Origin: Candidatus Woesearchaeota archaeon
GTDB lineage: Archaea; Nanobdellota; Nanobdellia; Woesearchaeales; WALR01
Direction of reading: 5' to 3'
Length of the DNA stretch: 13,996 nt
Assembly: GCA_015522765.1 (NCBI GenBank)
Contig: WALR01000069.1
Location: 1-13,996, forward strand
Shown here: positions 1-13,996 of the stretch, in pieces
Layout: each line of letters opens with the position of its first letter
Numbering within the stretch: the stretch's first letter is position 1
Program-made: the position numbers and the translations under genes
Notes under the pieces: generated by a model
Seen by the model: the letters and a program-made list of their open reading frames with translations, nothing else
Databases searched by the model: none
Told to the model about the DNA's origin: nothing

Positions 1-139
1 ATATTATTATCCCCGCGATTATGACTATTAATGCAATGACATGCCCGGGCTGGAGCTGAACCTTGCTCTTATACTCGTCGAAATACCTTACTATGCCTCC
101 TATCCCTGAGGGCATTGATATCTTATCATTCTTTGCCAT
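1..139 (-). CDS. Preprotein translocase subunit Sec61-beta (SecG-like), 3' end cut off
   Basis: This is the N-terminal 46 residues of a small membrane protein, read leftward from ATG at 139 and running off the window edge. It begins MAKNDKISMPSGIGGIVRYF and continues DEYKS, then KVQLQPGHVIALIVIIAGII. The basic start, the PSG-x-G-G-x-VRYF-DE motif and the single hydrophobic helix starting near residue 34 are the signature of archaeal Sec61-beta. In this family the protein is the small tail-anchored subunit of the SecYE-beta protein-conducting channel, with its N-terminus in the cytoplasm. The family is usually 50-60 residues, so only the end of the membrane helix should be missing. A TATA-like box about 26 bases before the ATG implies a leaderless transcript. 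Recognition rests on the motif; I see no rival family. Confidence 0.9.
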   Translation of the reverse strand, partial: MAKNDKISMPSGIGGIVRYFDEYKSKVQLQPGHVIALIVIIAGIII

Positions 140-157
140 AACCCTTAGAATGAGAGA

Positions 158-172
158 TTAATATTTAAATTT
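158..172 (-). promoter_or_regulatory. TATA box for sec61-beta
   Basis: On the minus strand the sequence reads AAATTTAAATATTAA. Its centre lies about 26 bases before the ATG at 139, the usual archaeal distance from TATA box to transcription start. The mRNA is therefore predicted to start at or next to the start codon, with no leader. No Shine-Dalgarno motif precedes this ATG, which agrees. Confidence 0.6.
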
Positions 173-205
173 ACCTATTTGAGGACAATAAGGAATAATC
201 ATGAG

Positions 206-515
206 TGTAGGGCAACATAAGCCACCTTCTGTGAGATGCAAACAGTCCGTCAGACTGAGATCATCCTCCCGGCATTCAACTAAGCGTCTGAGACTTGCAC
301 CAGCCAGGACTCGCCGTTTCATCCTCTCCCTGATAACTTCAGGTCCTACTTACCTGTCGCCAGGCTACGGAGCCATCATCATTGGTCAGGGCGGTGTCGT
401 TTCTGAGCGGTTGCCGCCCCTTTCAGGACCTCCCTTCCGGGAGTGGCTGCTTCCTCCTAAGAGGGGTGGGTGGACTTTCCCGGGCACGAAGCCCAGCGCC
501 GGGTGTTACCCTACA
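206..515 (-). ncRNA. rnpB: RNase P RNA (archaeal)
   Basis: This is the catalytic RNA of RNase P, which removes 5' leaders from pre-tRNA. The ends are set by an 11-base P1 helix: 5' UGUAGGGUAAC (515-505) pairs with 3' GUUGCCCUACA (216-206), with one G-U wobble. The 5' conserved segment GGGAAAGUCCACC contains AAGUCCACC (477-469). This pairs with GGUGGCUU (226-219) in the 3' segment ACAGAAGGUGGCUUAU to form the P4 helix, including the bulged U typical of this RNA. Between P1 and P4 is a GC-rich hairpin closed by a UUCG loop (near 480-500). The internal blocks GAAACGACACCGCCC and GAUGAAACGGCGA resemble archaeal RNase P cores. The length of about 310 nt fits archaeal type A. No clear oligo-T terminator follows. 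A plus-strand open frame across the locus is an antisense artefact. Confidence 0.93.
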
Positions 516-529
516 GAAGAGTGTAATGC

Positions 530-542
530 GCATATATTAATC
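530..542 (-). promoter_or_regulatory. Putative TATA box for RNase P RNA
   Basis: The minus strand reads GATTAATATATGCG, preceded by an A-rich CGAAAAATA stretch that could act as a BRE. Its centre is about 22 bases before the first P1 base (515), which fits transcription starting at or just before the mature 5' end. It lies in the 49-base gap between the methyltransferase stop and the RNA, which holds nothing else recognisable. Confidence 0.5.
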
Positions 543-564
543 TATTTTTCGGTTAATGCGGGCT

Positions 565-1662
565 TTATCCCTTCTTTATTATTAACAGTCTTACCTCCCC
601 CTTCCCCTGGAGTACGGGCCTGTCCTCCTCTATTTTCAGGGTGCTGCTCCCAAGAAGTGCAAGGCATTCATCGTGGAGCTTCTTATTTGTTGCCACAACG
701 CACATCCTGCCTTTGCTGTTCAGGACGAATTCTGCCTGGTGGAACAGCTCTCTCAGGCTGTTCCTCTCCTCGTTTCCGCGCAGAGAATCTGGCTGTGCAA
801 TGATTATGTCAATCTCCTCCTCTCCGTAAAGGGTGTCAAGCCATTCTACCTCTCTCTTCAGGCAGTTTATCTCCACGCCTGCAAGCTTCGAGTTTATCCG
901 GGCGGCCCTGACGCTTGCATAAGACCTGTCCATGCATACAAAGGTGCATTTCTCCTTCTCCTGTTTCCCCCTCATTTTAGAGATGAAAATAGCCCCTTCT
1001 ATCATCGTGCTTCCTGAGCCGCAGAAAGGGTCTATTATGAGGTGTTTCCCCCTGCCAACAGACCTGAATGGCAGGTAAAAAGAGGCAAAGGCAATGGGGG
1101 CGCTAAGCGACTCCCTGTGCATCAGGTGCCTGTAGCTGCGCCTTGAAAGCTCCCTCTTGAAGATGTCTATCCCGAGGTATGCCCTTCCCCCTGCGAACAA
1201 TAAAAGAAACAGGGTGTCATACCCGTTGAGGCTCACACTCAGTTTTATCCCTTCCTCCTCTGCCTTCTTAAGTATGAGCGCTCCTGCGAGTGAGGCGGCG
1301 TATGTGCTGCTGAATCCCCTGCCGCCTCCAATTGTTGTCACCCTGAATCTACCCCCCCTTATGAAGAGCTCCTTTATCTTAAGTTTCCCCGTGTCCTCTG
1401 CCTTTTTTATTATCCCCTCAGCGCAGATGAGGATAGCCCTTCTTGCAGACTGCATCTCCCCAATCCTCTCGGCTTTTTCCACAACTTCATCTATCCTTCC
1501 CCTCAACTTTATGATTACTCCTCCTTTGATAGGGGAAATCTCCTCGTATCCTTTTATGAGCATTCCCGCCTCATCTATGCATACATCCTCCAGGCCCTGC
1601 GGACAGCTGATAAGCACGGAGACAGCCCCTTCCTTATCCGTCCATAGGGATTTATTACTCAT
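565..1662 (-). CDS. THUMP-domain class I SAM methyltransferase (RlmL/Trm14-like), altered motif IV
   Basis: This 365-residue protein has the layout of the COG0116 family (Trm14, RlmL and relatives), which methylate guanine N2 in tRNA or rRNA. Residues about 10-165 look like a ferredoxin-like plus THUMP RNA-binding region. The family motif before the catalytic domain appears as ELSRRSYR (171-178). The Rossmann methyltransferase follows, with SAM-binding motif I DPFCGSGS (211-218) and a motif II acid in CMDRS (D245). Motif IV, normally N/D-PPY and the guanine-binding catalytic loop, reads AQPD here (289-292), so activity may be changed or lost. The gene starts 32 bases after the gyrA stop and probably shares its transcript. 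No Shine-Dalgarno is visible at the ATG, which is the first in frame. Whether the substrate is tRNA or rRNA cannot be told. Confidence 0.82.
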   Translation of the reverse strand: MSNKSLWTDKEGAVSVLISCPQGLEDVCIDEAGMLIKGYEEISPIKGGVIIKLRGRIDEVVEKAERIGEMQSARRAILICAEGIIKKAEDTGKLKIKELFIRGGRFRVTTIGGGRGFSSTYAASLAGALILKKAEEEGIKLSVSLNGYDTLFLLLFAGGRAYLGIDIFKRELSRRSYRHLMHRESLSAPIAFASFYLPFRSVGRGKHLIIDPFCGSGSTMIEGAIFISKMRGKQEKEKCTFVCMDRSYASVRAARINSKLAGVEINCLKREVEWLDTLYGEEEIDIIIAQPDSLRGNEERNSLRELFHQAEFVLNSKGRMCVVATNKKLHDECLALLGSSTLKIEEDRPVLQGKGEVRLLIIKKG

Positions 1663-1694
1663 AACTAAGCGGTAGAATTAGGTGTTTAATAAGC

Positions 1695-4139
1695 TTACTC
1701 TGAGACAACAGAAGAGTATACAACCTTGTCCTCTCCCCTCAGCCTTATTATCCTTACACCCTGGGTGTTTCTTCCTATTAAGGATATTGTCGATGCAGGG
1801 AACCTTATTATGTTGCCGCTCCTGCTCACAACAATTACCTGGTCGTCGTCGTCCACTGCGATGACCGAGACCACTCTGCCGTTTCTTTCGGTGCATCTTA
1901 TATTCGTCACCCCTGTGCCCCCTCTTCCTGTAAGCCTGTATTCAACTATCCTGCTCCTCTTCCCGAAGCCGTTCTCTGTGATTGTAAGAAGGCTCTTTGA
2001 GGGGTCTGCGGCGACGACTCCTATAACATAATCATCCTTTCTGAGTCTCATCCCCCTCACCCCCCTTGTGCTTCTCCCGACTGTCCTCAGCTGGGATTCC
2101 TTGAAACGGACCGCCTTTCCCTGGTGGGACGCCATTATTATCTCCCTGCTTCCGTCAGTGGCAATTACATTTACGAGCCTGTCATCATCGTCCAGAATTA
2201 TTGCCCTTATCCCCCCTCTTCTGGGATGGGAGAAGTCCGCAAGGCTGGTCTTTTTGACTACACCCTTCCTTGTTGCGAAAAGCGCGAAAAGCCCGTCTTT
2301 AAACTCTTTCAGTGGAAGAAATGCGACAGCCTTCTCCCCCTTCTCGAGCTCTATGAAGTTCTCTATGTGCCTCCCCTTTGAATACCTCATCCCCTCGGGA
2401 AGCCTGAACACCTTCACCCAATGCACCTTTCCCCTGTCTGTGAATACGAGGAGATAGGAGTGTGTCGAGGCGCTTATAACCCTCTCTATAAAATCGTCCT
2501 CCTTTGTGGAGGCGACTGTTATACCGACGCCCCCCCTGTTCTGCTGCTTGTAGTCTTTAAGCCCCGTCCTCTTTACATAACCCTCACGGCTGACCGTCAC
2601 AATCATCTGCTCCTCGTCTATAAGGTCCTCTGTCTCAATCTCTTCGTACTCGCTTTCAACTATCTCTGTCCTCCTCTCATCTCCGAACATCTCCCTCATC
2701 TTAAGCGTCTCCTCAATGATTATGCTGTTGACCTTATCCTCTGATGAGAGTATGCCCTCATATTCTCTTATGCTTACTTCAAGCTCCTCTTTTTCCTTGT
2801 TGAGCTTCTCGCTCTCAAGCCCTGTAAGCCTTGAAAGCTTCATGTCAAGCACAGCCTGTGCCTGTATCTCTGAAAGCCCGAAGTCATTGATGAGGCCGCT
2901 CTTTGCCTCTGCCGAGGATGATGAGCCCTTTATCAGCGCAACAACCCTGTCAATATTGATTATTGCCTTTATCAATCCGACCACTATGTGAAGTCTCTCC
3001 TTTGCCTTTCTCAGCTTAAACTCTGTCCTTCTCTTAACAACCTCCCTCCTGTGGGCTATGAAAACCTCTATGAGCCTCTTGATGCCCATTGTTACAGGCG
3101 AGTTGTTGACAAGTGCAAGGATAATTATTGGGAATGTGTCCTGCATCCTCGTAAACCTTAATAGGTTGTTAAGAACAACATCAGGGCTGGCGTCCCTCTT
3201 CAGCTCTATCACGACCCTCATCCCCTCCTTATCCGATTCATCTCTCAGGTCGGATATCCCTTCCAGGTGCTTCTCCCTCACAAGCCTTGCTATCTGCTCT
3301 ATGAGCAGAGCCTTGTTCACGAGATAGGGGAGCTCATTGATTATTATTGCGCTCTTCCCCTGCTTCTCCTCGACGGTTGTTTTTGCCCTCACTATCACCC
3401 TTCCCCTTCCAGTGGTGTACGCATGCGTGATGCTTCCCCTCCCCATTATTATGCCGCCTGTAGGGAAGTCAGGGCCCTTTATTATCGAGAGCACCTCCCT
3501 TACGCTCATGTCAGGGTTTTTTATGAGGCCCACGATTGCATCGCATACTTCCCTTAAGTTGTTGGGCGGGACGCTTGTCGCCATGCCCACTGCTATGCCG
3601 CTGCTTCCGTTCACAATAAGATTCGGAAACATTGAGGGCAGAACAACAGGCTCCTTCAGGGAGCCGTCAAAGTTATCCACGAAGTCAACTGTCTCCTTGT
3701 CTATGTCCTCGAGCATTGCCTCCGCGGTCCTGGCAAGCCTCGCCTCTGTATACCTCATAGCGGCCGGCGCATCCCCGTCTACGCTCCCGAAGTTTCCCTG
3801 CCCCTCTATGAGCGGGTATCTGAGTGAGAAGTCCTGAGCCATCCTTACGAGGCTCTCATAAACAGCTGAGTCGCCGTGGGGGTGAAACTTTCCTAAGACC
3901 TCCCCGACTATCCTCGCGCTCTTCTTGAACGGCTTGTTGTGGAACATGCCCAGCTGGTGCATGCCGAAGAGGACCCTCCTGTGGACAGGTTTCAGGCCGT
4001 CCCTGGCATCAGGCAGAGCCCTGCCAACTATAACGCTCATAGCATAGTCTATATAGCTCTGCTTCATCTCCTGCTCTATCTGTCTTATTATGAGCCTTTT
4101 GTCCTTTTCTTCCCTTTCCTCGGAATCTTCTCCTTCCAT
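1695..4139 (-). CDS. gyrA: DNA gyrase subunit A
   Basis: This 814-residue protein is the breakage-reunion subunit of DNA gyrase, which with GyrB adds negative supercoils using ATP. The winged-helix/tower core fills about 15-500. It contains the catalytic tyrosine in AAMRYTEAR (Y130) and the drug-region motif HPHGDSAVYE (86-95), with Ser91 and Glu95 at the positions equivalent to E. coli Ser83 and Asp87. Residues about 508-814 form the C-terminal beta-pinwheel that wraps DNA, with repeated blades. The GyrA box is QNRGGVG (533-539) instead of the classic QRRGGKG. The acidic, charged first 20 residues precede the conserved start of the core. AAGGA lies 6 bases before the ATG, supporting this start. 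No gyrB lies next to it here. Gyrase in archaea is generally held to be of bacterial origin. Topoisomerase IV A is the alternative, but the near-canonical GyrA box argues for gyrase. Confidence 0.95.
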   Translation of the reverse strand: MEGEDSEEREEKDKRLIIRQIEQEMKQSYIDYAMSVIVGRALPDARDGLKPVHRRVLFGMHQLGMFHNKPFKKSARIVGEVLGKFHPHGDSAVYESLVRMAQDFSLRYPLIEGQGNFGSVDGDAPAAMRYTEARLARTAEAMLEDIDKETVDFVDNFDGSLKEPVVLPSMFPNLIVNGSSGIAVGMATSVPPNNLREVCDAIVGLIKNPDMSVREVLSIIKGPDFPTGGIIMGRGSITHAYTTGRGRVIVRAKTTVEEKQGKSAIIINELPYLVNKALLIEQIARLVREKHLEGISDLRDESDKEGMRVVIELKRDASPDVVLNNLLRFTRMQDTFPIIILALVNNSPVTMGIKRLIEVFIAHRREVVKRRTEFKLRKAKERLHIVVGLIKAIINIDRVVALIKGSSSSAEAKSGLINDFGLSEIQAQAVLDMKLSRLTGLESEKLNKEKEELEVSIREYEGILSSEDKVNSIIIEETLKMREMFGDERRTEIVESEYEEIETEDLIDEEQMIVTVSREGYVKRTGLKDYKQQNRGGVGITVASTKEDDFIERVISASTHSYLLVFTDRGKVHWVKVFRLPEGMRYSKGRHIENFIELEKGEKAVAFLPLKEFKDGLFALFATRKGVVKKTSLADFSHPRRGGIRAIILDDDDRLVNVIATDGSREIIMASHQGKAVRFKESQLRTVGRSTRGVRGMRLRKDDYVIGVVAADPSKSLLTITENGFGKRSRIVEYRLTGRGGTGVTNIRCTERNGRVVSVIAVDDDDQVIVVSRSGNIIRFPASTISLIGRNTQGVRIIRLRGEDKVVYSSVVSE

Positions 4140-4145
4140 TCTTAT

Positions 4146-4150
4146 TCCTT
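4146..4150 (-). promoter_or_regulatory. Shine-Dalgarno site of gyrA
   Basis: AAGGA on the minus strand ends 6 bases before the ATG at 4139. It supports that start and indicates a leadered mRNA, unlike the divergent primase gene. Confidence 0.55.
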
Positions 4151-4210
4151 AATATGATTTTATCCTCAATAAACCCCTCAATATTCTCATTGTACTTAGT
4201 GTTCTGACCA

Positions 4211-4222
4211 CTCTTATAAGCC
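4211..4222 (-). promoter_or_regulatory. Putative TATA box for gyrA
   Basis: The minus strand reads GGCTTATAAGAG. Transcription would begin about 25 bases downstream, near 4190, leaving a leader of about 50 bases that carries the AAGGA site. A second box-like stretch, CTTATAAAAAC at about 4271-4281, could give a longer leader. The choice between them is open. Confidence 0.45.
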
Positions 4223-4256
4223 TTTTGGTAGCTAGTCTTATTCCAAAGAAACAATT

Positions 4257-4266
4257 AAAATATAAG
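4257..4266 (+). promoter_or_regulatory. TATA box for the primase gene
   Basis: AAAATATAAG is centred about 24 bases before the ATG at 4286 and is preceded by a purine-rich stretch. This spacing puts the transcription start at the start codon, so the mRNA is probably leaderless. No Shine-Dalgarno motif is visible. Confidence 0.6.
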
Positions 4267-4285
4267 TTGTGTTTTTATAAGCGTT

Positions 4286-5704
4286 ATGGATAAAGGAACA
4301 GCCGCAGAAGGCGCAATTACCCCCTCATTAAGGATGAAGTACTATAAAAGGAGGGATGTGTGCGAAGCCATAGTTGAGAGTGCAAGGGACAGGGAGGTGG
4401 GTGTCCGATTCTCATCCGGCTTTGGAAGGAGGCCCTCCATACTTGAATACCCTGATGATGTGTTGAGATACGCGATGAAGGGGGCAACCTCTTTTCATCT
4501 GTCCGAGGAGAGATGGCGTGATCCCCTCCAGATTAATCCGGCGATGGGCGAAGAGGAGTCAAACAGCCTTAGGAGCGGCTGGGACCTTGTGATTGACCTT
4601 GATGGGGCATACTTTGAATATTCTAAGATAGCGGCCCAGCTCATAATAAGGGTCATTAAGGGGCTTGGCGTCGAATCCCTCAGCGTCAAGTTCTCGGGGA
4701 ACAAGGGCTTTCACATAGGCATACCCTTCGAGGCTTTCCCCTCTAAATGGGCCTACAGGGAGGCTCCTGTTCCTCTTTCCCGCCTTTTCCCTGAGGCTCC
4801 GCGGAGGATTGCGGCATATCTAAAGTGGAGGACAAGCGAGCTTCTTGTGGAGAAGGTGATGGAGCTTGAGGACAATAATGTGAAGAGGGTCGCTCTGAAT
4901 ATAGGACTTGATGTTAATAAGATAACCAGCTCTGGGTTCATTAATAGGTACATAGGGGACAAGATTGTTAATATAGACACAATTCTTCTTGCCTCGAGGC
5001 ATCTCTTCAGGAGCCCCTACTCCCTTCATGAGAAGTCAGGGCTTGCCTCAATACCTATAAGACCGGGCAGGGTGGCGCTGTTCTCAAGGGAAGAGGCAAG
5101 GCCCCTAGATGTTAATGTTGAGATGAAATTTCTTGAGAGGAATGCAAGGAAGAATGAGGCTTTAAGACTGCTTCAGGAGGCATGGGACAATGATGAGAAG
5201 TCATTATCAGAACCGTCCGAGGAGGATAATGATAAAAAGGCGTTCTTTAAGGAGCTGAGGGAGAGCGACAACCTCGCTGTAAAAAATATTATGCAAAAAC
5301 AGGGGGTCCTGCCCTCAACAATAATGCCTCCCTGCATAAAGCGCATAATGGAAGGGCTTAATGACGGGAGGAAACGCGCATTGTTCATACTCATAAATTA
5401 CATGGGGAGCCTCGGCCTGAGCTATCCTGAAATTGAGGATGCTGTGAGAGAGTGGAATAAGAGGAACAGGGAGCCGTTAAGGTGGAACTATGTTCTCTCT
5501 CAGCTTTCCTATTATAAAAAGAGAAAGAGGGCCATAAGCCCCCCCTCCTGCGACAACCCTGCCTATTACAAGGACATGGGTATCTGCCACCCTGACTCTT
5601 TGTGCAGCACTATAAGGAATCCTCTCTCCTACACGCTTAAAAGGGCGAGGGGGCTTAACCGGGGCAGTAAAAGGGGCAAGAATTCTGTCAAGAAAAAGGA
5701 TTAA
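4286..5704 (+). CDS. Fused DNA primase: PriS catalytic core plus PriL iron-sulfur domain
   Basis: This 472-residue protein carries both halves of the archaeo-eukaryotic primase, which makes primers for replication. The PriS core (about 17-282) shows the metal-binding pair in VIDLDG (D104, D106), the nucleotide-binding motif SGNKGFH (137-143), a third acid in VNIDT (D231) and the family signature SRHLFRSPYSLHEKSGL (237-253). A charged linker (about 283-345) leads to a reduced PriL C-terminal domain (about 346-456). Its four cysteines, C350, C422, C434 and C440, match the 4Fe-4S ligands. The PriS part has one cysteine only (C26), so the usual zinc stem is missing, and the helical PriL N-terminal domain is absent. 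Single-chain primases are known from Nanoarchaeum and other small archaea. The ATG matches a leaderless promoter; Met17, close to the usual PriS start, is an alternative. The gene ends in a 4-base stop overlap with the convergent gene. Confidence 0.93.
   Translation: MDKGTAAEGAITPSLRMKYYKRRDVCEAIVESARDREVGVRFSSGFGRRPSILEYPDDVLRYAMKGATSFHLSEERWRDPLQINPAMGEEESNSLRSGWDLVIDLDGAYFEYSKIAAQLIIRVIKGLGVESLSVKFSGNKGFHIGIPFEAFPSKWAYREAPVPLSRLFPEAPRRIAAYLKWRTSELLVEKVMELEDNNVKRVALNIGLDVNKITSSGFINRYIGDKIVNIDTILLASRHLFRSPYSLHEKSGLASIPIRPGRVALFSREEARPLDVNVEMKFLERNARKNEALRLLQEAWDNDEKSLSEPSEEDNDKKAFFKELRESDNLAVKNIMQKQGVLPSTIMPPCIKRIMEGLNDGRKRALFILINYMGSLGLSYPEIEDAVREWNKRNREPLRWNYVLSQLSYYKKRKRAISPPSCDNPAYYKDMGICHPDSLCSTIRNPLSYTLKRARGLNRGSKRGKNSVKKKD
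5692..5701 (-). terminator. Possible oligo-T terminator of the KaiC operon
   Basis: Right after the minus-strand TAA the sequence runs TCCTTTTTCTT, a short pyrimidine/T tract of the kind that ends archaeal transcripts. It lies inside the last codons of the convergent primase gene. The call rests on base composition alone. Confidence 0.3.
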
Positions 5705-6204
5705 AGCAATATCACCCTGTCAACAACCTTTTTTATCTTCTCAACTGCCTCGCTTTCCGCGTCATCCCTCAGGCAGGTAAGCACGCTTATTGCGCCGGCC
5801 ATCGCGCTTGTCACAAGTATATCATGGCTGGTCTTAAATGCTTCTTCTTGGCTTGAATAAACGAGGAATGTCGATAGCGAGTCCAGGAGTATTGTTGCGG
5901 GCTTTTCTTCGTTCAGGATTCTTCTCAGGGCTGTTATAAGACCCTCCATGTCAGAGGGGGCGTCTATGTATGTGCAATTTGGAAACTCAGGGGGATTTTG
6001 CAGTACAGTCTTTGTTACGCCGTCTATGACGAACAGCCTATCATCGTTGAACCCCGCATCGTTAAGTGACCGGTGCACCTCCATAAATGGCTTGTTTAAT
6101 GTTATATAACACATCTTCTCGTTCTTCTCCTGAAACACCTGGTTTAGGATGCCCGTCAGCTTGTTAAGGAATTCTTCGTAGGGCAATACAACGAGGAAAT
6201 TCAT
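5701..6204 (-). CDS. Small RecA/KaiC-fold protein without Walker A (second paralogue)
   Basis: This is the last gene of the KaiC operon. The 167-residue product starts MNFLVVLPYEEF, a beta strand in the place of KaiC strand 1, but no GxxGxGKT loop follows. A helix (about 13-28) and a strand MCYITLNKP fit the next KaiC elements, with the catalytic Glu pair absent. A Walker-B-like strand TILLDSLSTF has its Asp at about 108, and the C-terminus ends in KKVVDRVILL. The product aligns along its length with the preceding gene's product (FVIDGVT/FIIDTVS, then LLDSLSTFLVY/VVDSLNSLLMY), so the two are paralogues. ATP binding is unlikely. A structural or regulatory partner of the KaiC protein is a reasonable inference. 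I chose ATG 6204 because GGGTGG precedes it; the longer reading would use GTG at 6213, inside that site. I do not recognise a named family. Confidence 0.75.
   Translation of the reverse strand: MNFLVVLPYEEFLNKLTGILNQVFQEKNEKMCYITLNKPFMEVHRSLNDAGFNDDRLFVIDGVTKTVLQNPPEFPNCTYIDAPSDMEGLITALRRILNEEKPATILLDSLSTFLVYSSQEEAFKTSHDILVTSAMAGAISVLTCLRDDAESEAVEKIKKVVDRVILL
5729..5734 (+). terminator. Possible oligo-T terminator after the primase gene
   Basis: A run of six T lies 25 bases after the primase stop, within the end of the convergent gene. Oligo-T runs end transcription in many archaea. There is no hairpin, so the support is only compositional. Confidence 0.3.
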
Positions 6205-6209
6205 CTTTG

Positions 6210-6215
6210 CCACCC
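6210..6215 (-). promoter_or_regulatory. Shine-Dalgarno site deciding the ATG 6204 start
   Basis: GGGTGG on the minus strand sits 5 bases before ATG 6204. A GTG at 6213 falls inside it, so the site favours the ATG. The same arrangement recurs before the upstream paralogue. Confidence 0.6.
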
Positions 6216-6243
6216 TGCTTGTTTACCATTTTCAAGAGCCATG

Positions 6244-6744
6244 TTAAGCCTCTTCGAACACGAACACATCCTTGATTGCTTCCTTGAGCCTCTCAATCAT
6301 CTCTCCCCCCTTAACAACGATGCATATCACATCGGTATTCCCGAATCCAACCGCAAAACTCCTCATTAACTTTGTTATCCTGTTCAGGGAGTTGTACATT
6401 AAAAGGCTGTTAAGGGAGTCTACGACCACGAGACTGTCCCCCTTATTATTCTTAACCACCTCTGCAACCCTGTCATTAATCTCGTCTATCATTGCAGGCG
6501 ACGAAACAAATGACACCCTCTCATCCTCTTCTTTAGGCGCATTGAACATCATGCTGACCGTATCAATTATGAACGGCTGCTTAATACCCCCTACAATCTT
6601 CTTAACATCCGAGGCGAGTCTTGATGTTGATACCCAAACCACCTGTTTGTCCTCATTTATAATCTCCCTTGCAAGTTTTGAGAGCTTCTCGTTGTACTCG
6701 TCTTTGGAAAACTCCTTTACCACTTTCAGACTGTTACCATTCAT
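6244..6744 (-). CDS. Small RecA/KaiC-fold protein without Walker A (first paralogue)
   Basis: This is the middle gene of the KaiC operon, giving a 166-residue product. Strand 1 (SLKVVKEF) is followed by SKDEY where KaiC has its P-loop, then an amphipathic helix and the strand KQVVWVSTS, with no catalytic Glu pair. A central FIIDTVS element and a Walker-B-like strand LVVVDSLNSLL (Asp near 109) remain. The product is homologous along its length to the next gene's product, and both look like a KaiC domain stripped of its nucleotide site. Translation probably starts at ATG 6744, preceded by GGTGG. A longer form could start at GTG 6777, which overlaps the kaiC TAG stop by one base; translational coupling to kaiC is possible either way. 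Function is unknown. Binding to the KaiC hexamer or to a membrane partner is only inference. Confidence 0.75.
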   Translation of the reverse strand: MNGNSLKVVKEFSKDEYNEKLSKLAREIINEDKQVVWVSTSRLASDVKKIVGGIKQPFIIDTVSMMFNAPKEEDERVSFVSSPAMIDEINDRVAEVVKNNKGDSLVVVDSLNSLLMYNSLNRITKLMRSFAVGFGNTDVICIVVKGGEMIERLKEAIKDVFVFEEA

Positions 6745-6749
6745 GTTTA

Positions 6750-6754
6750 CCACC
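6750..6754 (-). promoter_or_regulatory. Shine-Dalgarno site deciding the ATG 6744 start
   Basis: GGTGG on the minus strand lies 5 bases before ATG 6744. It favours that ATG over the in-frame GTG at 6777, which has no such motif at the right distance. Confidence 0.55.
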
Positions 6755-6776
6755 AAATAAAAATCCCTGCAGGTCA

Positions 6777-8288
6777 CTAGCGTATATTACTTGATAGGTC
6801 TTGGAACGCCTTGAATATCTTTTCTTCCTCTATGCTTCTGCTCGCTGTTCCTGTCATTATTCCCTTAACCCCCTTGAAAGTGTTTTCTACCTGCACCCCT
6901 TTTTTATCTATTTTATACTCTCTTAATCCCTTATCATGATTTGAGTCCCTTACCTTAAGCACGGTGAGGAACCTCTTCATCTCAGAGTCAAGCTCCACAT
7001 ATCTCAGGAGTATTATGTTGTCTATGACTGTTGAGAGCTTCACATATTCAGAGCTGAAGCTCTGGGAGAGCTCTGAGCTTGATGAGTGGGTGAACCAGGC
7101 GGTTATCCCCTCTGACTTGAGGTAGTAGCCGAGCCTCTTTATGAACTCCAGAACCTCTTTTTTTGAGAACACCTTCTCCATACTTGAGAGGCTGTCAATC
7201 ACGAGCCTTGAGGGCTTAAACCTTTCAATCTCGTTTTTTATGTTAATTAGATGCTCGTATATGAGCGCATTCTCAGGAAAGATGGAGAGTATCTTTATGT
7301 TCTTCTTCATCGCATTCTCTGATATGAAGCTGAAGTGGAGCGCCTCCTTGACAATCTGGCTTTCAGGCTCCTCGAATGTGATAAACATCCCCTTCTCCTT
7401 GTTCAATGCCCCTCCCGATAGGAACTGGAGCGAGAGAATTGTTTTTCCTGTGCCGCTCGGGCCTGATATGAGTGTTGTAGATGCCTTTACAATCCCCCCT
7501 TCCACCAGCCTGTCAAAGCCCCTTATCCCTGTCTTTACCTTCTCATCATATGCTCTCTTTACCTCTGCCAGTTTGATTGGTGTGAAGAAGACGAGCCCCT
7601 TATCGCTTATCTTAAAAGGGATAGGCCCCTGAAAGAAGGATGTCCCCCTCATCTTTACTATGTTGAATATACGCGTTGGTCTCTCATCTTCCTCCTTAAA
7701 AGTGAGCTTAAGAATCCCGTCGGATATGAATTCTTCAACCCCAAAGGATGAATTCCCAGCGTTGTCTGATAATACCTCGCTTGTCAGCAGGGTTGTGCAT
7801 CCCAGGTTGTTAAGCGAGTTTCCGAGTTCAAATATGAATTCTCTTATGAGTGCCTTATCATGTATGAGATAGCAGATGGCCGTTATGGAATCTATGACCG
7901 CCCTCTTTGCCCCTGAGACCTTTATCATCCTCTCTATCGCCTCCACGAGCTGCCTGACATCTCTCATGGTAAAGGGCTTTGACGAGTCCATCTTCCAGTC
8001 CTTCATGATTCTTCTCAGGTCGCTGAAATGGAGCCTTACCCCGTCAACGAGGTCTGCAGAGAAAAAGCTCATCCCCTTAAGGTTGTTGAGGGCTTTAATA
8101 ACTGGTTCTGTTGTTGTAAGGTAGATCCCTGTCTCCTTGAATTTTGAGTAGCCGTTAAATAGGAACTGCATTGCGAAGATTGTCTTGCCTACTCCGCTTG
8201 TTCCAGACATAAGTACGCAGTGCCCCCTCGGCAGGCCGCCATTGAGGGATTCATCAATCTGCTCTATCCCTATTGCGCATCTTTCCAT
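6777..8288 (-). CDS. KaiC-like double-domain RecA-family ATPase
   Basis: This 503-residue protein has two KaiC domains in tandem. CI (about 1-240) has Walker A GTSGVGKT (29-36), TTTE (58-61) at the catalytic Glu position, and Walker B AVIDS (D133). CII (about 250-485) has Walker A GPSGTGKT (276-283), the full FEE pair (E306, E307) and Walker B LVIDS (D365). CII also keeps KLSTVIDNIILLRYVE (417-432), aligning S419-T420 with the cyanobacterial KaiC phosphosites Ser431-Thr432. Length matches cyanobacterial KaiC (about 520). The family forms hexamers; archaeal members have been proposed as signalling hubs, usually without KaiA or KaiB, and neither is seen here. The gene leads a three-gene operon with two P-loop-less RecA-like proteins. 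A TATA box about 29 bases upstream suggests an almost leaderless mRNA. Clock function should not be assumed. Confidence 0.92.
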   Translation of the reverse strand: MERCAIGIEQIDESLNGGLPRGHCVLMSGTSGVGKTIFAMQFLFNGYSKFKETGIYLTTTEPVIKALNNLKGMSFFSADLVDGVRLHFSDLRRIMKDWKMDSSKPFTMRDVRQLVEAIERMIKVSGAKRAVIDSITAICYLIHDKALIREFIFELGNSLNNLGCTTLLTSEVLSDNAGNSSFGVEEFISDGILKLTFKEEDERPTRIFNIVKMRGTSFFQGPIPFKISDKGLVFFTPIKLAEVKRAYDEKVKTGIRGFDRLVEGGIVKASTTLISGPSGTGKTILSLQFLSGGALNKEKGMFITFEEPESQIVKEALHFSFISENAMKKNIKILSIFPENALIYEHLINIKNEIERFKPSRLVIDSLSSMEKVFSKKEVLEFIKRLGYYLKSEGITAWFTHSSSSELSQSFSSEYVKLSTVIDNIILLRYVELDSEMKRFLTVLKVRDSNHDKGLREYKIDKKGVQVENTFKGVKGIMTGTASRSIEEEKIFKAFQDLSSNIR

Positions 8289-8312
8289 CTTTATTAAATA
8301 ATGGTTGCTCCA

Positions 8313-8322
8313 GTTTTTAAAC
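8313..8322 (-). promoter_or_regulatory. TATA box for the kaiC operon
   Basis: The minus strand reads GTTTAAAAAC, preceded by the purine-rich AAGGAAAA (possible BRE). It lies about 29 bases before ATG 8288, giving a very short or absent leader. Confidence 0.55.
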
Positions 8323-8346
8323 TTTTCCTTGGAAATGGGGTATTAT

Positions 8347-8352
8347 AAAAAA
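8347..8352 (-). terminator. Oligo-T terminator after the giant secreted-protein gene
   Basis: Six T on the minus strand, within TTCTCTTTTTTATAATA, lie about 20 bases after the giant gene's stop and before the kaiC promoter. The position between two transcription units fits an archaeal terminator. Confidence 0.45.
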
Positions 8353-8371
8353 GAGAATAGATTAAAGGTAC

Positions 8372-11300
8372 TTAGCAGTCTCTCGTTGAAAGTATAAGCT
8401 TACCCGGCTCAACGCTTCCTGCACTGCAGTCCCCTATATCCTGATTCCAGCTGCTTACATAGCCCCAGTTTGACATATCACAAGAGGTGCATTTACAATT
8501 ATTGTCAAGGTGCTCAATCCTTACCACAAGCTTCTCGCCAGGCTTAAGATGAAGCTTCTTTGGAGCGGGTACAACAGTGGTATCCTGCATCCATGGATAC
8601 TCCTTATCATCCCAGCTGCTCTCATTGACGAGGAGCTTTCCATCTTCGCTTTTCCTGTATAAAAGGATGCGCATATCCTCATTTGTCTGGCCCTGGCAGT
8701 ACCGTATATCCGGTGCGTCCCATTTGGGATTTCCATTTTTATCCTTCTCAAGGGGAACATTTGAATATCTCGTCTTATCAGAGGCTGGCTCATACTCCGG
8801 CTCATAGCTATCCATTCCGTTCTTTTTAACAACCTTAACCACGATATCAGGGCACCAATTACCATTATCCGTGCCGGTTTGAACCTTTATAAAGTCCTTA
8901 CCATGATTTTCGACAAACGACTTCTGCGCCTCGTATGTCCTGCAATGCCCCCTCTCTACTGTGAAATAGGCAGAGTAATCTCCTTCACAAGGGAGATTAG
9001 AGGTGTCTATCTCCAGGGACATGTTATGGGGCTCTGTATCACACCTGACATAGATATTACTAAGGTCATAGTCCACTGTTTTAAGCGGCTTCTGCTTGGC
9101 TTCCAGCTCAATACTCGCGGAATCAGAGTCTCCATTCTTGCCTTCTATATCTGTCCATGAATCTGTAGCCTCACAGCTAACAGTATAAGTTGCCGGATCA
9201 GTGAATGTGTGAGATACAGCTGATTGCCCGTTAGCAGAGGGGCCATCCTCTTTAGATGTTCCATCCCCAAAGTCCCATCTAAATGTATAGGGCGGGTCTC
9301 CCTGGCCTGCCGTGCATGTAAGCTGGGATGTTAAGGGGGCGTAGCCGCTTAAAGGATTCGCCTCTACTGATACAACAGGCAGTTTATTCCTCCTTATAAC
9401 CGTTATTGCAAACTCTGAGTCTGCATGCGCCCCATGCACATCAGTCGCCCTTACAGTGCATGTTGCAGGCGTAAAGGGGTCCTTCTTAGGAGTATTGTAG
9501 TAGCCATCAGTAGGGGTCATTGTAAGGGTATCCCCGCTAACCTCGCATTTCACATCCCCCTGCTGCACCACTGAATATGTTAAGGCGTCATTGTCCGGGT
9601 CGCCTGAATAAGATGTTAAATCCAGTGTCTTTGACTCATCCCAGTACATGACCTGATCAGGGATGTCTATTGAGGGCTTCCTGTTGGTGTTATGAACAAT
9701 TATAGTCAATGACTTTTCATCATAAGCGCCTGAGTCGTCACTAACCTTAAGATGGAGGTTGTATGTTCCCTCATCGTCATATGATGGGGTCCACTCAAAT
9801 ACCCAGGTGTACTTCCCGCCTGCTGACGATGTGCTCTTATCAATTGATGAAGGAACGACCTCGCCGTTCTCGTCAAATCCCTTGATGAACTTGTCAGCCA
9901 GCTGTATGTTTGAAGAAGACGGGACAAGGTGTAGTGTGTCCCCATCTATGTTTATGTCCTTGTCAGATGCCGCTATCTCTATCCTCAGCTTGTCCCCCTC
10001 ATTAACCTCAAATGAGTCATCAGAAGGACTGATAATTGAAGGAAGCCTGTTGTTATTCTTCACGGTTATCTTCATGCTTGCATCCGCATTGGCAATGCCA
10101 TCTGATGTTCCCACGGAGATGAGATAGGATCTATAGGATTGCTTGTTGCTCGCCTGAGCATAATCAGGAACCCAGCTCAGTCGTCCATCGCTGAATGACG
10201 GGCTTCCTGTGCTGGCGTCAAAGTCCTCGTAAGACTTGATTATCTGCAGGGCGTTGGTATAATAAACCAAGGGGTCGTTATCAGGGTCTGAGGAGAACTT
10301 GCTAATGTCAAAGGTAGCCAGGTGGCCCTCCTCAACCTCCAGGTTAGAGGGTGCTATTGAGGGCTTCCTGTTCTTGTTTATCACATGTATCCTCGTCTTC
10401 TTAACTTCGCTCTTTGCCCTGTTGGAATCTGTGGCGAAGAATGTTACATAATAATCAGGGCCGTTGTCCGCGCTGTTGTAATCCGTTGTCCAGCTGAGCG
10501 TGCCTGTACTGCTGCCTGTTCCCTGCTGCTGGGAGAATGATGCGCCGGGCACTCCGCTTGTGTCAGCTGTTATCTGAACCGTGTCGTGCTCAGGGTCTTT
10601 CGCAACAACTTCAAAAGAGACTGTCTGTGTTTCCTCAACATTAACAACATCAGGTGCCATAATGGTTGGGGGCTCATTTATATGACCAACATTGATATAG
10701 AAGTTCTGGGTGCAGTACATCCCCCTCTTAGTGTTTTCCACTGCCTTAAGGGAAAACTTATATCTCCCGACCTCTGCAGCGTTCTGATTTATCTTCTTGC
10801 CATCAGGCGTCACGCTACCCGTCCAGCTGGAGGGCGGCGTAAGAATGAACTTTACAGAGTCCCCGTCAGGAGAGTAAACATACTTGGAGATATCGATATG
10901 GACGGAATTGCCCTCGTCAAAGTAAAAGTCAGGCACCCCGCATTGAGGGGCATCATCCAGCCTGTAATCAACCTCGAGGTCGTAAGCCTTAAGCACGCCA
11001 AAAGTAGCATTGAAGTCTATGGGGACATAGCACAGCTCTCCTCCGATGCAGGCGCACTTTGTTTTGTGGGAAACAGGAGCTAATTCACACCCATCCTTAT
11101 CCACCATCACTCCTTCTTGTGTACTTTTACATTTATCATGAGTGTCAGGTATGCCGTCTCCATCGCTGTCTTTAAATGTGGCTCCTCCGCAGAGTGCATT
11201 TATACACTCGTCAAGGTCTTTTATTGATTGTTTAAACTCACCCTTACAGGAATCCCTTGAGGTTATTCTGCAGAAACCTTCCTCTTCGCAACAACCCCCT

Positions 11301-13825
11301 GCTTCTTGATAGCCTCCCCCTAATTGGTTATTATAGCACTTATCAAGATAATCATTCACCACGCCTGAGAAGTCAGCCGTCCTCTCAGGTTTTTTAAGCA
11401 CGCCCTTATGGCTCCACTCAGGCGGATAGCCAGACTCAGCAACATCCATGGATGCATCAACCGGCGGAACCCTGTTTTTATTGTAACACACACTGTTGAT
11501 GACTACATCTGTCTCGTTGCTGCAACAGGCCGATGTGCCGTCGTAAGTGCTATTTATATAGTATTCATGCGGGTCATCGCCGCAGCAGTAATTTGATGAA
11601 ACCCCTTCGGTGCCTGCATGAGCTATATCATAACCCTTGGCTGTATCATCACAGAACTGATTGCCCTTAGCCCATCTATGGGCTGGTTCACAGGGTACAT
11701 TTTCATTAGCACCCACCCAGGTGGCGTTGGCAAAATACATCTCGCAATAGCTCTTTGAGGCAAGGTTGTGGTCGCCTATATCAGCGTCCTGCCAGCCTGC
11801 CCTTCCGCCGTAAAAGACGCATATCTCCTTGTCCGGGCTTTTATCATAATCGTTTGGGGAATGTCCGCTGACATCTAGAAGTGTCCCAGCAGGGTAGCAT
11901 TTTCCATTATAAACGCATTCATCAGCCCCTGCGCAGCAGGCCTCATCTGCTGGGTCTGTTTCAGTCGTCCCAGAGCAGTCCCCTCCCGGAGCGTAGCAGC
12001 CGCCCATTGACTCATCCCAGTCGCTGTAATAATCTGCAAACTCGTGGGCGTCGTCGCCGCAGCATTCTGTCTCGCCTACAGCGTAGTCTACTCCAGGGCT
12101 ATCTTCGCCCCACTTAAGCCACTTCTTCACTCCGAGCTTAGTGCTGTGCTCATCGAACACTGCCTCGAGTTTTCCCTCGCAGCAGTCTCTTGATTTATCA
12201 TAGCTGGAGTTGAGGTAGTCATCCGCGTTGCAGTACTTATAGTTCTCCTGGTAGATTATGTCTCCTGTGAGGTCCCTTATCATATAGGTCTTCTCCCTGT
12301 AGTTCCTGTCAGTAGTCTCTGACTTTATGGCGAGGCCGCCTGAGGGGTAATAAGAGTAATTTGATAAAGAAACATGATTGCCGAAGTGCTTCTCTATTGA
12401 CGCAACCTTTGACTCTGGAGTGTAAGTATAAATAGTGTACATGTTGGGAGCACTAACCTTGGTAACCCTCCCCAGCACATCATAATCATAGGCGGTTTGT
12501 CCTATACTCTTTACTCTGTTAGTACCAGGATAATAAGTATATGGCATATTGTTGAATGAGAGCCTGTCCCCCTCTTTGTTATAGGTGTAATTGAGAGAAT
12601 GGGCATAATAACCGTGGTTCTCTGCCTTAAAAAGCCTGTCAATCGCGTCATAATAGAATCTGGCATTAAATCCTCCCTTGGCTTTTATCATTTTGAGATT
12701 ACCATTTAAGTAGTAATCAAAGTTTTCCTTGAGGAGTTCCTCGTTGTTACTCATTGCAATAGTGCTGTTAACAAAACCCCTTGGGGTGTAATCGTATGTC
12801 ATAAACAATTTTCCCCCTCCGAGGCTCTTCTTCTTCATCATGCCGTAATTATTGTAATCAAGGTCTGCAACCCTCTTATCAATCACCCCGTCATTCCCAA
12901 CATCGATATCTATCGACTTAACCTCCCCCAAGAGGTTGTAGTTAAATATCCTCTTAACATTGCCGGGGTCGACTATTGACTTCATAAGCCCCCCTGGAAG
13001 GGCATTAAAAGAAACCTCATAAGTGGATCTCTCGAATGGCGTGGCCCTGCCGTTCTCTGAGTTTTCAAGCTGGGCATCATCAATGAGCACATAGCGTCTT
13101 TCCCTCCCACTGCTGAAAGGGTTTCCAGTGGAGGAAACAAAGAACTGGACTACAATCCAATCCGCACCCTCTAAAGCCGGGCTTATATCAACGGAGTAGC
13201 GGTGCCACCCCTTCTGCTTGCTCACATTGAAGTAGTATGTTATATCACCCACAGGATTCATTATCTCCCTTGTAGAGGGGATGAAAGGGCCCTTAAAGGT
13301 GTTAATCTTAAGTGAGAGCGGTGTGTTGAGGTCATCGCTCTTTGCAAAGAATGACACGACATAGCTCTTTGAAGGATTAACCTTCACAGGCAGGAACTTA
13401 ATGTCGGCATAGTTTTGTGCACCCTTTACCACGCTTGGCGTCTCAATCTTCAGGCATTCTCCATCGTAACATGCAGAGGCAGGCATGAACTTGCACCATC
13501 CATCCTTAAGAAGGAACAACTCGTCATCATGGCTGTCAAATCCGCCGTCTGTCAACAGGTTCTTGTTTTTGAATATGTAAACATCACTTGCAATCTGACC
13601 TGTTGCATCATATCTGGGCAGGATTGTTACTAGCCTGCTATCCGAACGGCAGAGTCTCCCCCTTGTCCGTTCGGTGAATAAACAGTGGCTATCCCCGTCA
13701 AAATAATTCTTGGTGTATTCCAACGCATTAGCAGGGAATGATGAAACATGGATAGGAACGAATATTATGAGCATTAAAATAAGCAGTGCCAAAGAACATC
13801 CCTTAATTAAACTTGTCTGTTTCAT
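8372..13825 (-). CDS. Giant secreted multidomain protein: YD/RHS repeats, Cys-rich cassette, Ig-like repeats, PKD
   Basis: This 1817-residue protein is exported: a basic start, a hydrophobic stretch (about 9-29) and a possible ANA cleavage site near 34. Residues about 88-265 resemble a carbohydrate-binding jelly-roll (NLLTDGGFD at the start, VLIDDAQLE at the end). YD/RHS-like repeats follow (about 268-530; for example YDYDVLGRVTKV). Residues about 530-880 hold some 27 cysteines, including six CC pairs and two CCGDD-x-HE units (588 and 747). DSDGDGIPDTHDKC (886-899) is a thrombospondin type-3 calcium repeat. Five Ig/cadherin-like repeats (about 965-1478) are joined by linkers such as NRKPSI, then a PKD domain (about 1484-1556) with WDFGDG. 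The last 235 residues are unrecognised and lack a membrane anchor. GGTGA lies 9 bases before the ATG. The gene sits 15 bases after another YD-repeat gene. Adhesion or cell contact is inferred, not shown. Confidence 0.9.
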   Translation of the reverse strand: MKQTSLIKGCSLALLILMLIIFVPIHVSSFPANALEYTKNYFDGDSHCLFTERTRGRLCRSDSRLVTILPRYDATGQIASDVYIFKNKNLLTDGGFDSHDDELFLLKDGWCKFMPASACYDGECLKIETPSVVKGAQNYADIKFLPVKVNPSKSYVVSFFAKSDDLNTPLSLKINTFKGPFIPSTREIMNPVGDITYYFNVSKQKGWHRYSVDISPALEGADWIVVQFFVSSTGNPFSSGRERRYVLIDDAQLENSENGRATPFERSTYEVSFNALPGGLMKSIVDPGNVKRIFNYNLLGEVKSIDIDVGNDGVIDKRVADLDYNNYGMMKKKSLGGGKLFMTYDYTPRGFVNSTIAMSNNEELLKENFDYYLNGNLKMIKAKGGFNARFYYDAIDRLFKAENHGYYAHSLNYTYNKEGDRLSFNNMPYTYYPGTNRVKSIGQTAYDYDVLGRVTKVSAPNMYTIYTYTPESKVASIEKHFGNHVSLSNYSYYPSGGLAIKSETTDRNYREKTYMIRDLTGDIIYQENYKYCNADDYLNSSYDKSRDCCEGKLEAVFDEHSTKLGVKKWLKWGEDSPGVDYAVGETECCGDDAHEFADYYSDWDESMGGCYAPGGDCSGTTETDPADEACCAGADECVYNGKCYPAGTLLDVSGHSPNDYDKSPDKEICVFYGGRAGWQDADIGDHNLASKSYCEMYFANATWVGANENVPCEPAHRWAKGNQFCDDTAKGYDIAHAGTEGVSSNYCCGDDPHEYYINSTYDGTSACCSNETDVVINSVCYNKNRVPPVDASMDVAESGYPPEWSHKGVLKKPERTADFSGVVNDYLDKCYNNQLGGGYQEAGGCCEEEGFCRITSRDSCKGEFKQSIKDLDECINALCGGATFKDSDGDGIPDTHDKCKSTQEGVMVDKDGCELAPVSHKTKCACIGGELCYVPIDFNATFGVLKAYDLEVDYRLDDAPQCGVPDFYFDEGNSVHIDISKYVYSPDGDSVKFILTPPSSWTGSVTPDGKKINQNAAEVGRYKFSLKAVENTKRGMYCTQNFYINVGHINEPPTIMAPDVVNVEETQTVSFEVVAKDPEHDTVQITADTSGVPGASFSQQQGTGSSTGTLSWTTDYNSADNGPDYYVTFFATDSNRAKSEVKKTRIHVINKNRKPSIAPSNLEVEEGHLATFDISKFSSDPDNDPLVYYTNALQIIKSYEDFDASTGSPSFSDGRLSWVPDYAQASNKQSYRSYLISVGTSDGIANADASMKITVKNNNRLPSIISPSDDSFEVNEGDKLRIEIAASDKDINIDGDTLHLVPSSSNIQLADKFIKGFDENGEVVPSSIDKSTSSAGGKYTWVFEWTPSYDDEGTYNLHLKVSDDSGAYDEKSLTIIVHNTNRKPSIDIPDQVMYWDESKTLDLTSYSGDPDNDALTYSVVQQGDVKCEVSGDTLTMTPTDGYYNTPKKDPFTPATCTVRATDVHGAHADSEFAITVIRRNKLPVVSVEANPLSGYAPLTSQLTCTAGQGDPPYTFRWDFGDGTSKEDGPSANGQSAVSHTFTDPATYTVSCEATDSWTDIEGKNGDSDSASIELEAKQKPLKTVDYDLSNIYVRCDTEPHNMSLEIDTSNLPCEGDYSAYFTVERGHCRTYEAQKSFVENHGKDFIKVQTGTDNGNWCPDIVVKVVKKNGMDSYEPEYEPASDKTRYSNVPLEKDKNGNPKWDAPDIRYCQGQTNEDMRILLYRKSEDGKLLVNESSWDDKEYPWMQDTTVVPAPKKLHLKPGEKLVVRIEHLDNNCKCTSCDMSNWGYVSSWNQDIGDCSAGSVEPGKLILSTRDC

Positions 13826-13834
13826 ATTTTCTTT

Positions 13835-13839
13835 TCACC
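13835..13839 (-). promoter_or_regulatory. Shine-Dalgarno site of the giant secreted-protein gene
   Basis: GGTGA on the minus strand lies 9 bases before ATG 13825, within the 15-base gap after the upstream stop. It fixes the start just before the signal peptide and shows that the gene is translated from a shared transcript. Confidence 0.6.
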
Positions 13840-13840
13840 T

Positions 13841-13996
13841 TCAACTTTTTGCAATCCAGCTCTCATTAACACGGCCGACAATGTCATAGTGAGTATGCGT
13901 TACAAATCCCAAGTTATCTTTCATAGTAACAGTCCTGCCAAGATCGTCATAGCTAAGCCATCTCTTCCCCGTGTTGGGGTCATATAAGGATAGCAT
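13841..13996 (-). CDS. YD/RHS-repeat protein, C-terminal end only
   Basis: Only the last 51 codons are inside the window; the frame is open to the edge and ends at TGA 13843-13841. The peptide reads YDPNTGKRWLSYDDLGRTVT, then MKDNLGFVTHTHYDIVGRVN, then ESWIAKS. Two YD-type repeats (YDDLGRTVTM and YDIVGRVNESW) place it in the RHS/YD superfamily of secreted repeat-shell proteins. It stops directly after a repeat, with neither an RHS core end motif nor a toxin-like tail, so it may be a shortened shell or half of a split protein. The neighbouring gene, 15 bases further on, opens with a signal peptide and also holds YD repeats, so the two are probably co-transcribed. The first in-window codon happens to be ATG, but the true start is expected to lie outside. 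Confidence 0.75.
   Translation of the reverse strand: MLSLYDPNTGKRWLSYDDLGRTVTMKDNLGFVTHTHYDIVGRVNESWIAKS

Follow-up and report, generated by a model that had tools for sequence, protein, structure and literature searches.

What do two small proteins do when their genes stand directly behind that of a KaiC ATPase in an archaeon? The question is raised by contig WALR01000069.1 of a Candidatus Woesearchaeota archaeon (assembly GCA_015522765.1), of which positions 1 to 13,996, the whole stretch analysed, are referred to here as the window. Three open reading frames (ORFs) lie tightly spaced on its minus strand in the order kaiC–B–C, and their positions, collected in Table 1, were confirmed. The first encodes a two-domain KaiC, and the others encode small P-loop-less proteins that we call B and C. 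Several KaiC-family proteins occur in many archaea, and few of these proteins have a known partner. We judge, with a probability of about 0.55, that the locus is a KaiC-based signalling operon in which a KaiC autokinase/ATPase is accompanied by two non-catalytic partners in a regulatory role like that of KaiA and KaiB.

B and C share ancestry with one another and with the core of KaiC. BLASTP aligns the two at an E value of 6e-4 (19% over 112 columns). A profile made from 21 relatives, with both window proteins left out, gives 125 bits to C and 78.5 bits to B, and the best of 200 shuffles of each sequence reaches 4.6 and 8.3 bits, respectively. The same profile scores the CII domain of KaiC at 19.0 bits (best CII shuffle 5.7) but does not establish a link to CI, which scores 8.2 bits against 4.1 for CI shuffles and 8.3 for shuffled B. 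The small family matches KaiC with an hhalign E value of 5e-6, its profile matches KaiC in the PDB at 1e-5, and C exceeds the Pfam cut-off for KaiC. Structure searches with the predicted models of B and C identified both as RecA folds matching KaiC. A chance likeness to KaiC was ruled out by the leave-out profile with its shuffles and by the fold searches. Of the Pfam families, which carry no function there, DUF7090 (cut-off 27 bits) is passed by C (32.2) and B (28.3) and DUF7504 by C; B (23.2 bits) stays below the 33.1 bits required for DUF835, for which C has no listed match. Searches of a large protein set with B and C singly returned one near-identical protein each, and a search with an alignment returned 10; the search tool relied on shared 5-residue words.

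The losses in the small family were examined in 56 small proteins drawn from 46 sequences (the window, 40 G loci in two batches, L052, L056, L107, L108 and L114), with a domain score above 60 bits, KaiC matches at 1e-10 removed and identical rows counted once. Walker A was found in none of the 56 domains, those of B and C included, and none has Glu-Glu at the site of the KaiC catalytic pair. This site holds Asn-Lys in 29, Asn-Arg in six, Ser-Arg in five, Ser-Lys in five and other residues in 11. Asp111, the Walker B aspartate in the numbering of C, and Asp64 are conserved in all 56. One small protein, from L074, has a Walker A-like string, located outside the domain. The small proteins that were aligned with KaiC domains end past the strand VVDRVILL, about 40 residues short of the end of a KaiC domain, and the VKMRG/LKVRD hairpin, the source of the trans Lys/Arg in KaiC rings, is missing. 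Some relatives carry other C-terminal extensions, with total lengths of up to 305 amino acids (aa). Among these longer members, with some 110 extra C-terminal residues, are L028 5968–6885 (plus strand, 305 aa) and L035 6009–6893 (plus strand, 294 aa).

Judged from the alignments, neither half of the KaiC ATP site is left in B or C, the cis half (P-loop and Glu pair) and the trans half (Lys/Arg hairpin) having both gone. In a ring, a subunit of this kind would be unable to bind ATP and of no help to the next subunit, which makes docking or capping likelier than incorporation into the ring; the missing hairpin by itself argues against the role of an ordinary in-ring subunit. The most conserved positions of the family cluster where the strands end on their C-terminal side, along the edge of the sheet that formerly faced the nucleotide, with 10 of the top 20 there against 3.8 expected (p 0.001) and seven of the top 16 (p 0.014).

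The arrangement recurs. Eight two-domain kaiC genes are present in 7 of the 352 genomes of the order Woesearchaeales (E 1e-60), and an even sample of the phylum has two-domain KaiC in 2 of 371 genomes (E 1e-55), namely the window genome and G252. Neighbourhoods were searched for small genes with profiles built from small proteins only. A B-type gene lies downstream in five of the eight loci. Four of these carry B and a second small gene on the strand of kaiC (the window, G252:C43, G059 and G028, where the second gene runs to the contig end), and in the fifth, G084, a B-like ORF starts 7 bases past the kaiC stop and runs for 62 residues before the contig breaks it off. The five loci, from five families, show kaiC and then B in the same order and on one strand, which rules out a one-off of this assembly. 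G252:C43 has an additional small gene immediately upstream of kaiC. In G028, a hydrophobic ORF of 120 aa without a Pfam match (L056 1094–1456, minus strand) lies between kaiC and the two small genes. A scan of named genomes (40 loci) gave no further trio, and the bacterial two-domain KaiCs in it had no small gene in the stretch examined.

In a tree of the 56 small proteins, the four B genes group together with L024 (97/83). The second genes of the window and G252 form one group, which includes the upstream gene of G252 (95/97), and those of G059 and G028 form a separate one (100/99). A topology test, from which three long-branch rows were omitted, rejected the placing of all four second genes together (p-AU 0.009) and did not reject that of the four B genes (0.72). 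On the strength of these groupings and this test, it tentatively seems that the KaiC–B pair is ancestral and that the second partner differs in each of two lineages; long branches, that of window B above all, make single placements unsure. The B-type gene of L024 (5313–6631, plus strand) lies directly behind a gene for a CDGSH/4Fe-4S protein, not behind kaiC.

The structural part of an earlier note on this DNA is borne out by these results. It had described two mutually alignable small genes behind a two-domain kaiC, had taken VVVDSLNS and ILLDSLST for the KaiC Walker B strand, had noted the absence of Walker A and of the catalytic Glu pair, where alignment places Ser-Arg in B and Asn-Lys in C, and had named the predicted fold and the gene neighbourhood in related genomes as checks; both checks came out in its favour.

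The KaiC of the window aligns almost end to end with solved KaiCs (E about 1e-89) and comprises two tandem RecA domains with a Walker A motif in each. The Glu pair of CII is invariant in all eight two-domain KaiCs of the order. At the CI site the same eight have Thr-Glu, and the replacement of the first Glu is therefore a trait of this KaiC group and not of the operon. That residue matters for CI hydrolysis. A tree that omitted L079 places the eight in one clade against six bacterial KaiCs (100/100). The Ser-Thr pair is complete in six of the eight, the window included, and reads Ser-Ser in G084 and Ser-Val in G028. Its cyanobacterial counterpart, S431/T432, is the phosphorylation pair according to PMC5520375. 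The window protein falls short of the NCBI cut-offs for clock KaiC (383.2 versus 408 bits for NF006799 and 324.1 versus 546.25 for TIGR02655). KaiB was found in none of the four genomes searched, of which G000, G059 and G028 are only 76–85% complete, and it is on this weak ground that a KaiB-type clock was set aside.

Small genes also gather near KaiC-family genes more widely. The small family is present in 134 of the 352 genomes of the order (E 1e-8). Among the best 150 listed of each kind, 40 small genes have a KaiC-family gene within 3 kb and 27 have one within 1 kb, against about 0.95 and 0.42 expected if a genome is taken as 1.3 Mb. Without the eight small genes of G000, G252:C43, G059 and G028, 32 of 142 best-listed places remain within 3 kb. 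Of the 23 sequences in the profile, six derive from kaiC loci (the window, L042 and L052). In L108 (5362–7397), L114 (4089–7412) and L064 (4657–7400), two single-domain KaiC genes lie next to each other, with a small P-loop-less gene alongside on the opposite strand, a split counterpart of the two-domain set. Elsewhere, small genes occur near genes for proteins of 700–820 aa that combine a C-terminal KaiC domain with a long N-terminal part (L062 1681–3786, L075 1353–3815 and L077 1538–3658, all on the minus strand), and in the L077 protein the N-terminal part contains DUF5752.

Inactivated relatives of KaiC are not new. Makarova, Galperin and Koonin reportedly described in 2017 an archaeal KaiC signalling network that includes inactivated KaiC-like domains. 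The term iKaiC is used for such domains, DUF835 and MEDS among them, in Galperin et al. 2018 (PMC5847659), which refers to the 2017 paper for detail. B and C share with iKaiC their KaiC homology, the RecA fold in predicted models and the loss of ATPase motifs, and seven of the 23 relatives match DUF835 at E < 0.001; a part in KaiC signalling is suggested by their gene neighbourhood. They differ in that the iKaiC examples taken from PMC5847659 are parts of fusions with receiver, PAS or HalOD1 domains, whereas here two stand-alone domains lie behind a two-domain KaiC with a Ser-Thr pair. The general idea of inactivated KaiC domains in archaeal signalling is therefore already in print, and the trio is a variant of it. 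No publication on a kaiC–B–C trio, and no paper joining KaiC with Woesearchaeota, was found in the literature searched, to which the 2017 paper did not belong. The earlier note knew of no described system with this exact set; its interpretation stands for fold and gene neighbourhood but finds no support in so far as it would make the set new in kind, and the capping, docking or tuning of the hexamer that it suggested for the dead subunits is a proposal.

The cyanobacterial KaiABC clock resembles the set in its two-domain KaiC with both Walker A motifs, the CII Glu pair and the Ser-Thr pair, and in its two small partners. It is unlike the archaeal set in the Thr of the CI site, in the KaiB not found and in the clock cut-offs missed, and the predicted models give B and C KaiC-type folds and not those of KaiA or KaiB. 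One-domain KaiCs and rare KaiB are reported from archaea in PMC5520375. The best precedent for a partner protein from the KaiC family is ArlH (FlaH) of the archaellum, according to PMC8978795 a KaiC-like RecA-fold protein that acts by docking on another ATPase. ArlH is the best Foldseek match of the B model (E 2.8e-6); it binds ATP, however, whereas B and C have no P-loop, and the window has no archaellum genes. A further regulator of KaiC type is CirA, from Haloferax (PMC13286277).

In the operon that we favour, KaiC would form the usual double ring and, to judge from its motifs, would turn over ATP mainly in CII and autophosphorylate the Ser419-Thr420 pair. B and C, catalytically dead domains of the iKaiC type probably made from the kaiC transcript, keep conserved residues where the sheet once bordered the nucleotide. 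By this edge, formerly a ring interface, they would most likely attach to KaiC, or to one another while on KaiC, and would either control its ATPase activity or state of phosphorylation or present KaiC to a partner on the output side; the task may be likened to that of KaiA and KaiB in cyanobacteria. A more specific version, in which B and C alternate in a pseudo-ring that uses the emptied nucleotide edge to stack on the KaiC hexamer and gates CII phosphorylation, dead domain copies having taken over the KaiA/KaiB role and the second subunit having been recruited separately in two lineages, strikes us as quite unlikely.

Several observations tell against the favoured reading. Three of the eight two-domain kaiC genes (G252:C66, G175 and G143) have no small gene in the available stretch, which for G143 is 1.4 kb. 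Of the 150 best-listed small genes, 110 are not within 3 kb of a listed KaiC gene, and for only 23 of the 40 that are does the KaiC gene lie on the same strand. G028 has small genes, yet its KaiC lacks the Thr of the phosphorylation pair. The clustering at the strand ends loses its significance when the count is limited to the top 12 positions (4 of 12, p 0.16), and the model of B is the poorer one, with its first 13 residues unmodelled.

It might be, instead, that B and C build a ring of their own, non-catalytic and pseudo-hexameric, stacked on or beside KaiC. The model for such a ring is eukaryotic Elp4/5/6, whose subunits are, as B and C are, paralogous RecA folds without a Walker A consensus. 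Elp4/5/6, however, forms a heterohexameric tRNA-modification ring bound to Elp123, whereas the neighbour of B and C is KaiC; KaiC-like chains score equal to or above Elongator chains, and the match to Elong_Iki1 barely exceeds its cut-off. Small genes, moreover, are mostly single and not paired, and yeast Elp456 is known from the literature to bind and hydrolyse ATP, so that it is no clean example of a dead ring. Elongator kinship was accordingly set aside as the prime reading, and we regard a separate ring as unlikely.

Conservation at the old pocket (Asp64, Asp111, the Asn/Ser-Lys/Arg pair and aromatic residues) could also mean that the emptied nucleotide site binds another small molecule and that B and C are ligand-sensing adaptors, signalling to KaiC or to other proteins outside any ring. 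The family is indeed common in the order without two-domain KaiC (134 of 352 genomes against 7), but the conserved Lys/Arg may do no more than occupy the pocket, paired with the Asp residues, and we hold this explanation, too, to be improbable. That the small genes just travel with kaiC, or are remnants, with no shared function would fit the three kaiC genes that lack them, the small number of complete sets known (four) and the long branches of window B and C. Against it stand five loci, each in a different family, that agree in gene order and strand, a clustering with KaiC-family genes far above expectation even when the complete sets are taken out, and residues conserved across 56 proteins, and we consider it very unlikely.

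GGTGG precedes an internal ATG of both B and C at an identical spacing, so that ATG 6744 and ATG 6204 are the likelier starts, and public protein predictions of 166 aa (B) and 167 aa (C) agree. From their spacing, B and C would share one transcript with kaiC.

Table 1. Features of the kaiC–B–C locus (positions in the window)
Feature	Position	Strand	Basis or remark
kaiC, RecA domains CI and CII, 503 aa	6777..8288	-	sequence, profile and structure-database matches
B, P-loop-less KaiC-like protein	6244..6777	-	177 aa from GTG 6777; likelier 166 aa from ATG 6744
C, P-loop-less KaiC-like protein	5701..6213	-	170 aa from GTG 6213; likelier 167 aa from ATG 6204
TATA-like box TTTAAAAA, about 29 bases ahead of kaiC start	8314..8321	-	sequence; putative promoter role
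CI Walker A GTSGVGKT, residues 29-36	8181..8204	-	sequence
CI catalytic Glu pair site, Thr60-Glu61, not Glu-Glu	8106..8111	-	alignment to solved KaiCs
CII Walker A GPSGTGKT, residues 276-283	7440..7463	-	sequence
CII catalytic Glu pair Glu306-Glu307, intact	7368..7373	-	alignment
Ser419-Thr420, aligned with Ser-Thr pair of solved KaiCs (cyanobacterial S431/T432)	7029..7034	-	alignment
GGTGG, 5 bases ahead of B ATG 6744	6750..6754	-	possible ribosome-binding site
B Ser52-Arg53 at KaiC catalytic Glu pair site	6619..6624	-	alignment
B VVVDSLNS, Walker B-like strand	6406..6429	-	alignment to KaiC Walker B strand
GGTGG, 5 bases ahead of C ATG 6204	6210..6214	-	possible ribosome-binding site
C Leu-Asn-Lys-Pro (39-42), Asn-Lys at KaiC catalytic Glu pair site	6088..6099	-	alignment
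C ILLDSLST, Walker B-like strand, contains Asp111	5869..5892	-	alignment to KaiC Walker B strand

The window genome assembly comprises 961,221 bases in 167 contigs. Convergent with C, whose 3' end it overlaps by 4 bases, is a single ORF (4286–5704, plus strand) matching PF01896 and PF04104, the small and large archaeal primase subunits, and thus a fused PriS–PriL primase. Upstream of kaiC, 8372–13825 (minus strand) encodes a probable surface protein of 1,817 aa with Ig-like, cadherin-like and PKD domains. Farther away, both on the minus strand, are a complete DNA gyrase subunit A (1695–4139; NCBIfam 1,167 bits), the host being a DPANN archaeon, and an RMKL/Trm14-like RNA methyltransferase (565–1662) whose score is far under the Trm14 cut-off.

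From this gene set, a KaiC that bears the Ser-Thr pair and has no detected KaiB gains two candidate partners, and with three small proteins a direct test is possible. If B and C regulate KaiC, they would show how a self-phosphorylating ring can come under the control of proteins that are degenerate kin of its own domain. The occurrence of the arrangement in a few distant relatives suggests that some archaea may run KaiC with purpose-built inactive partners.

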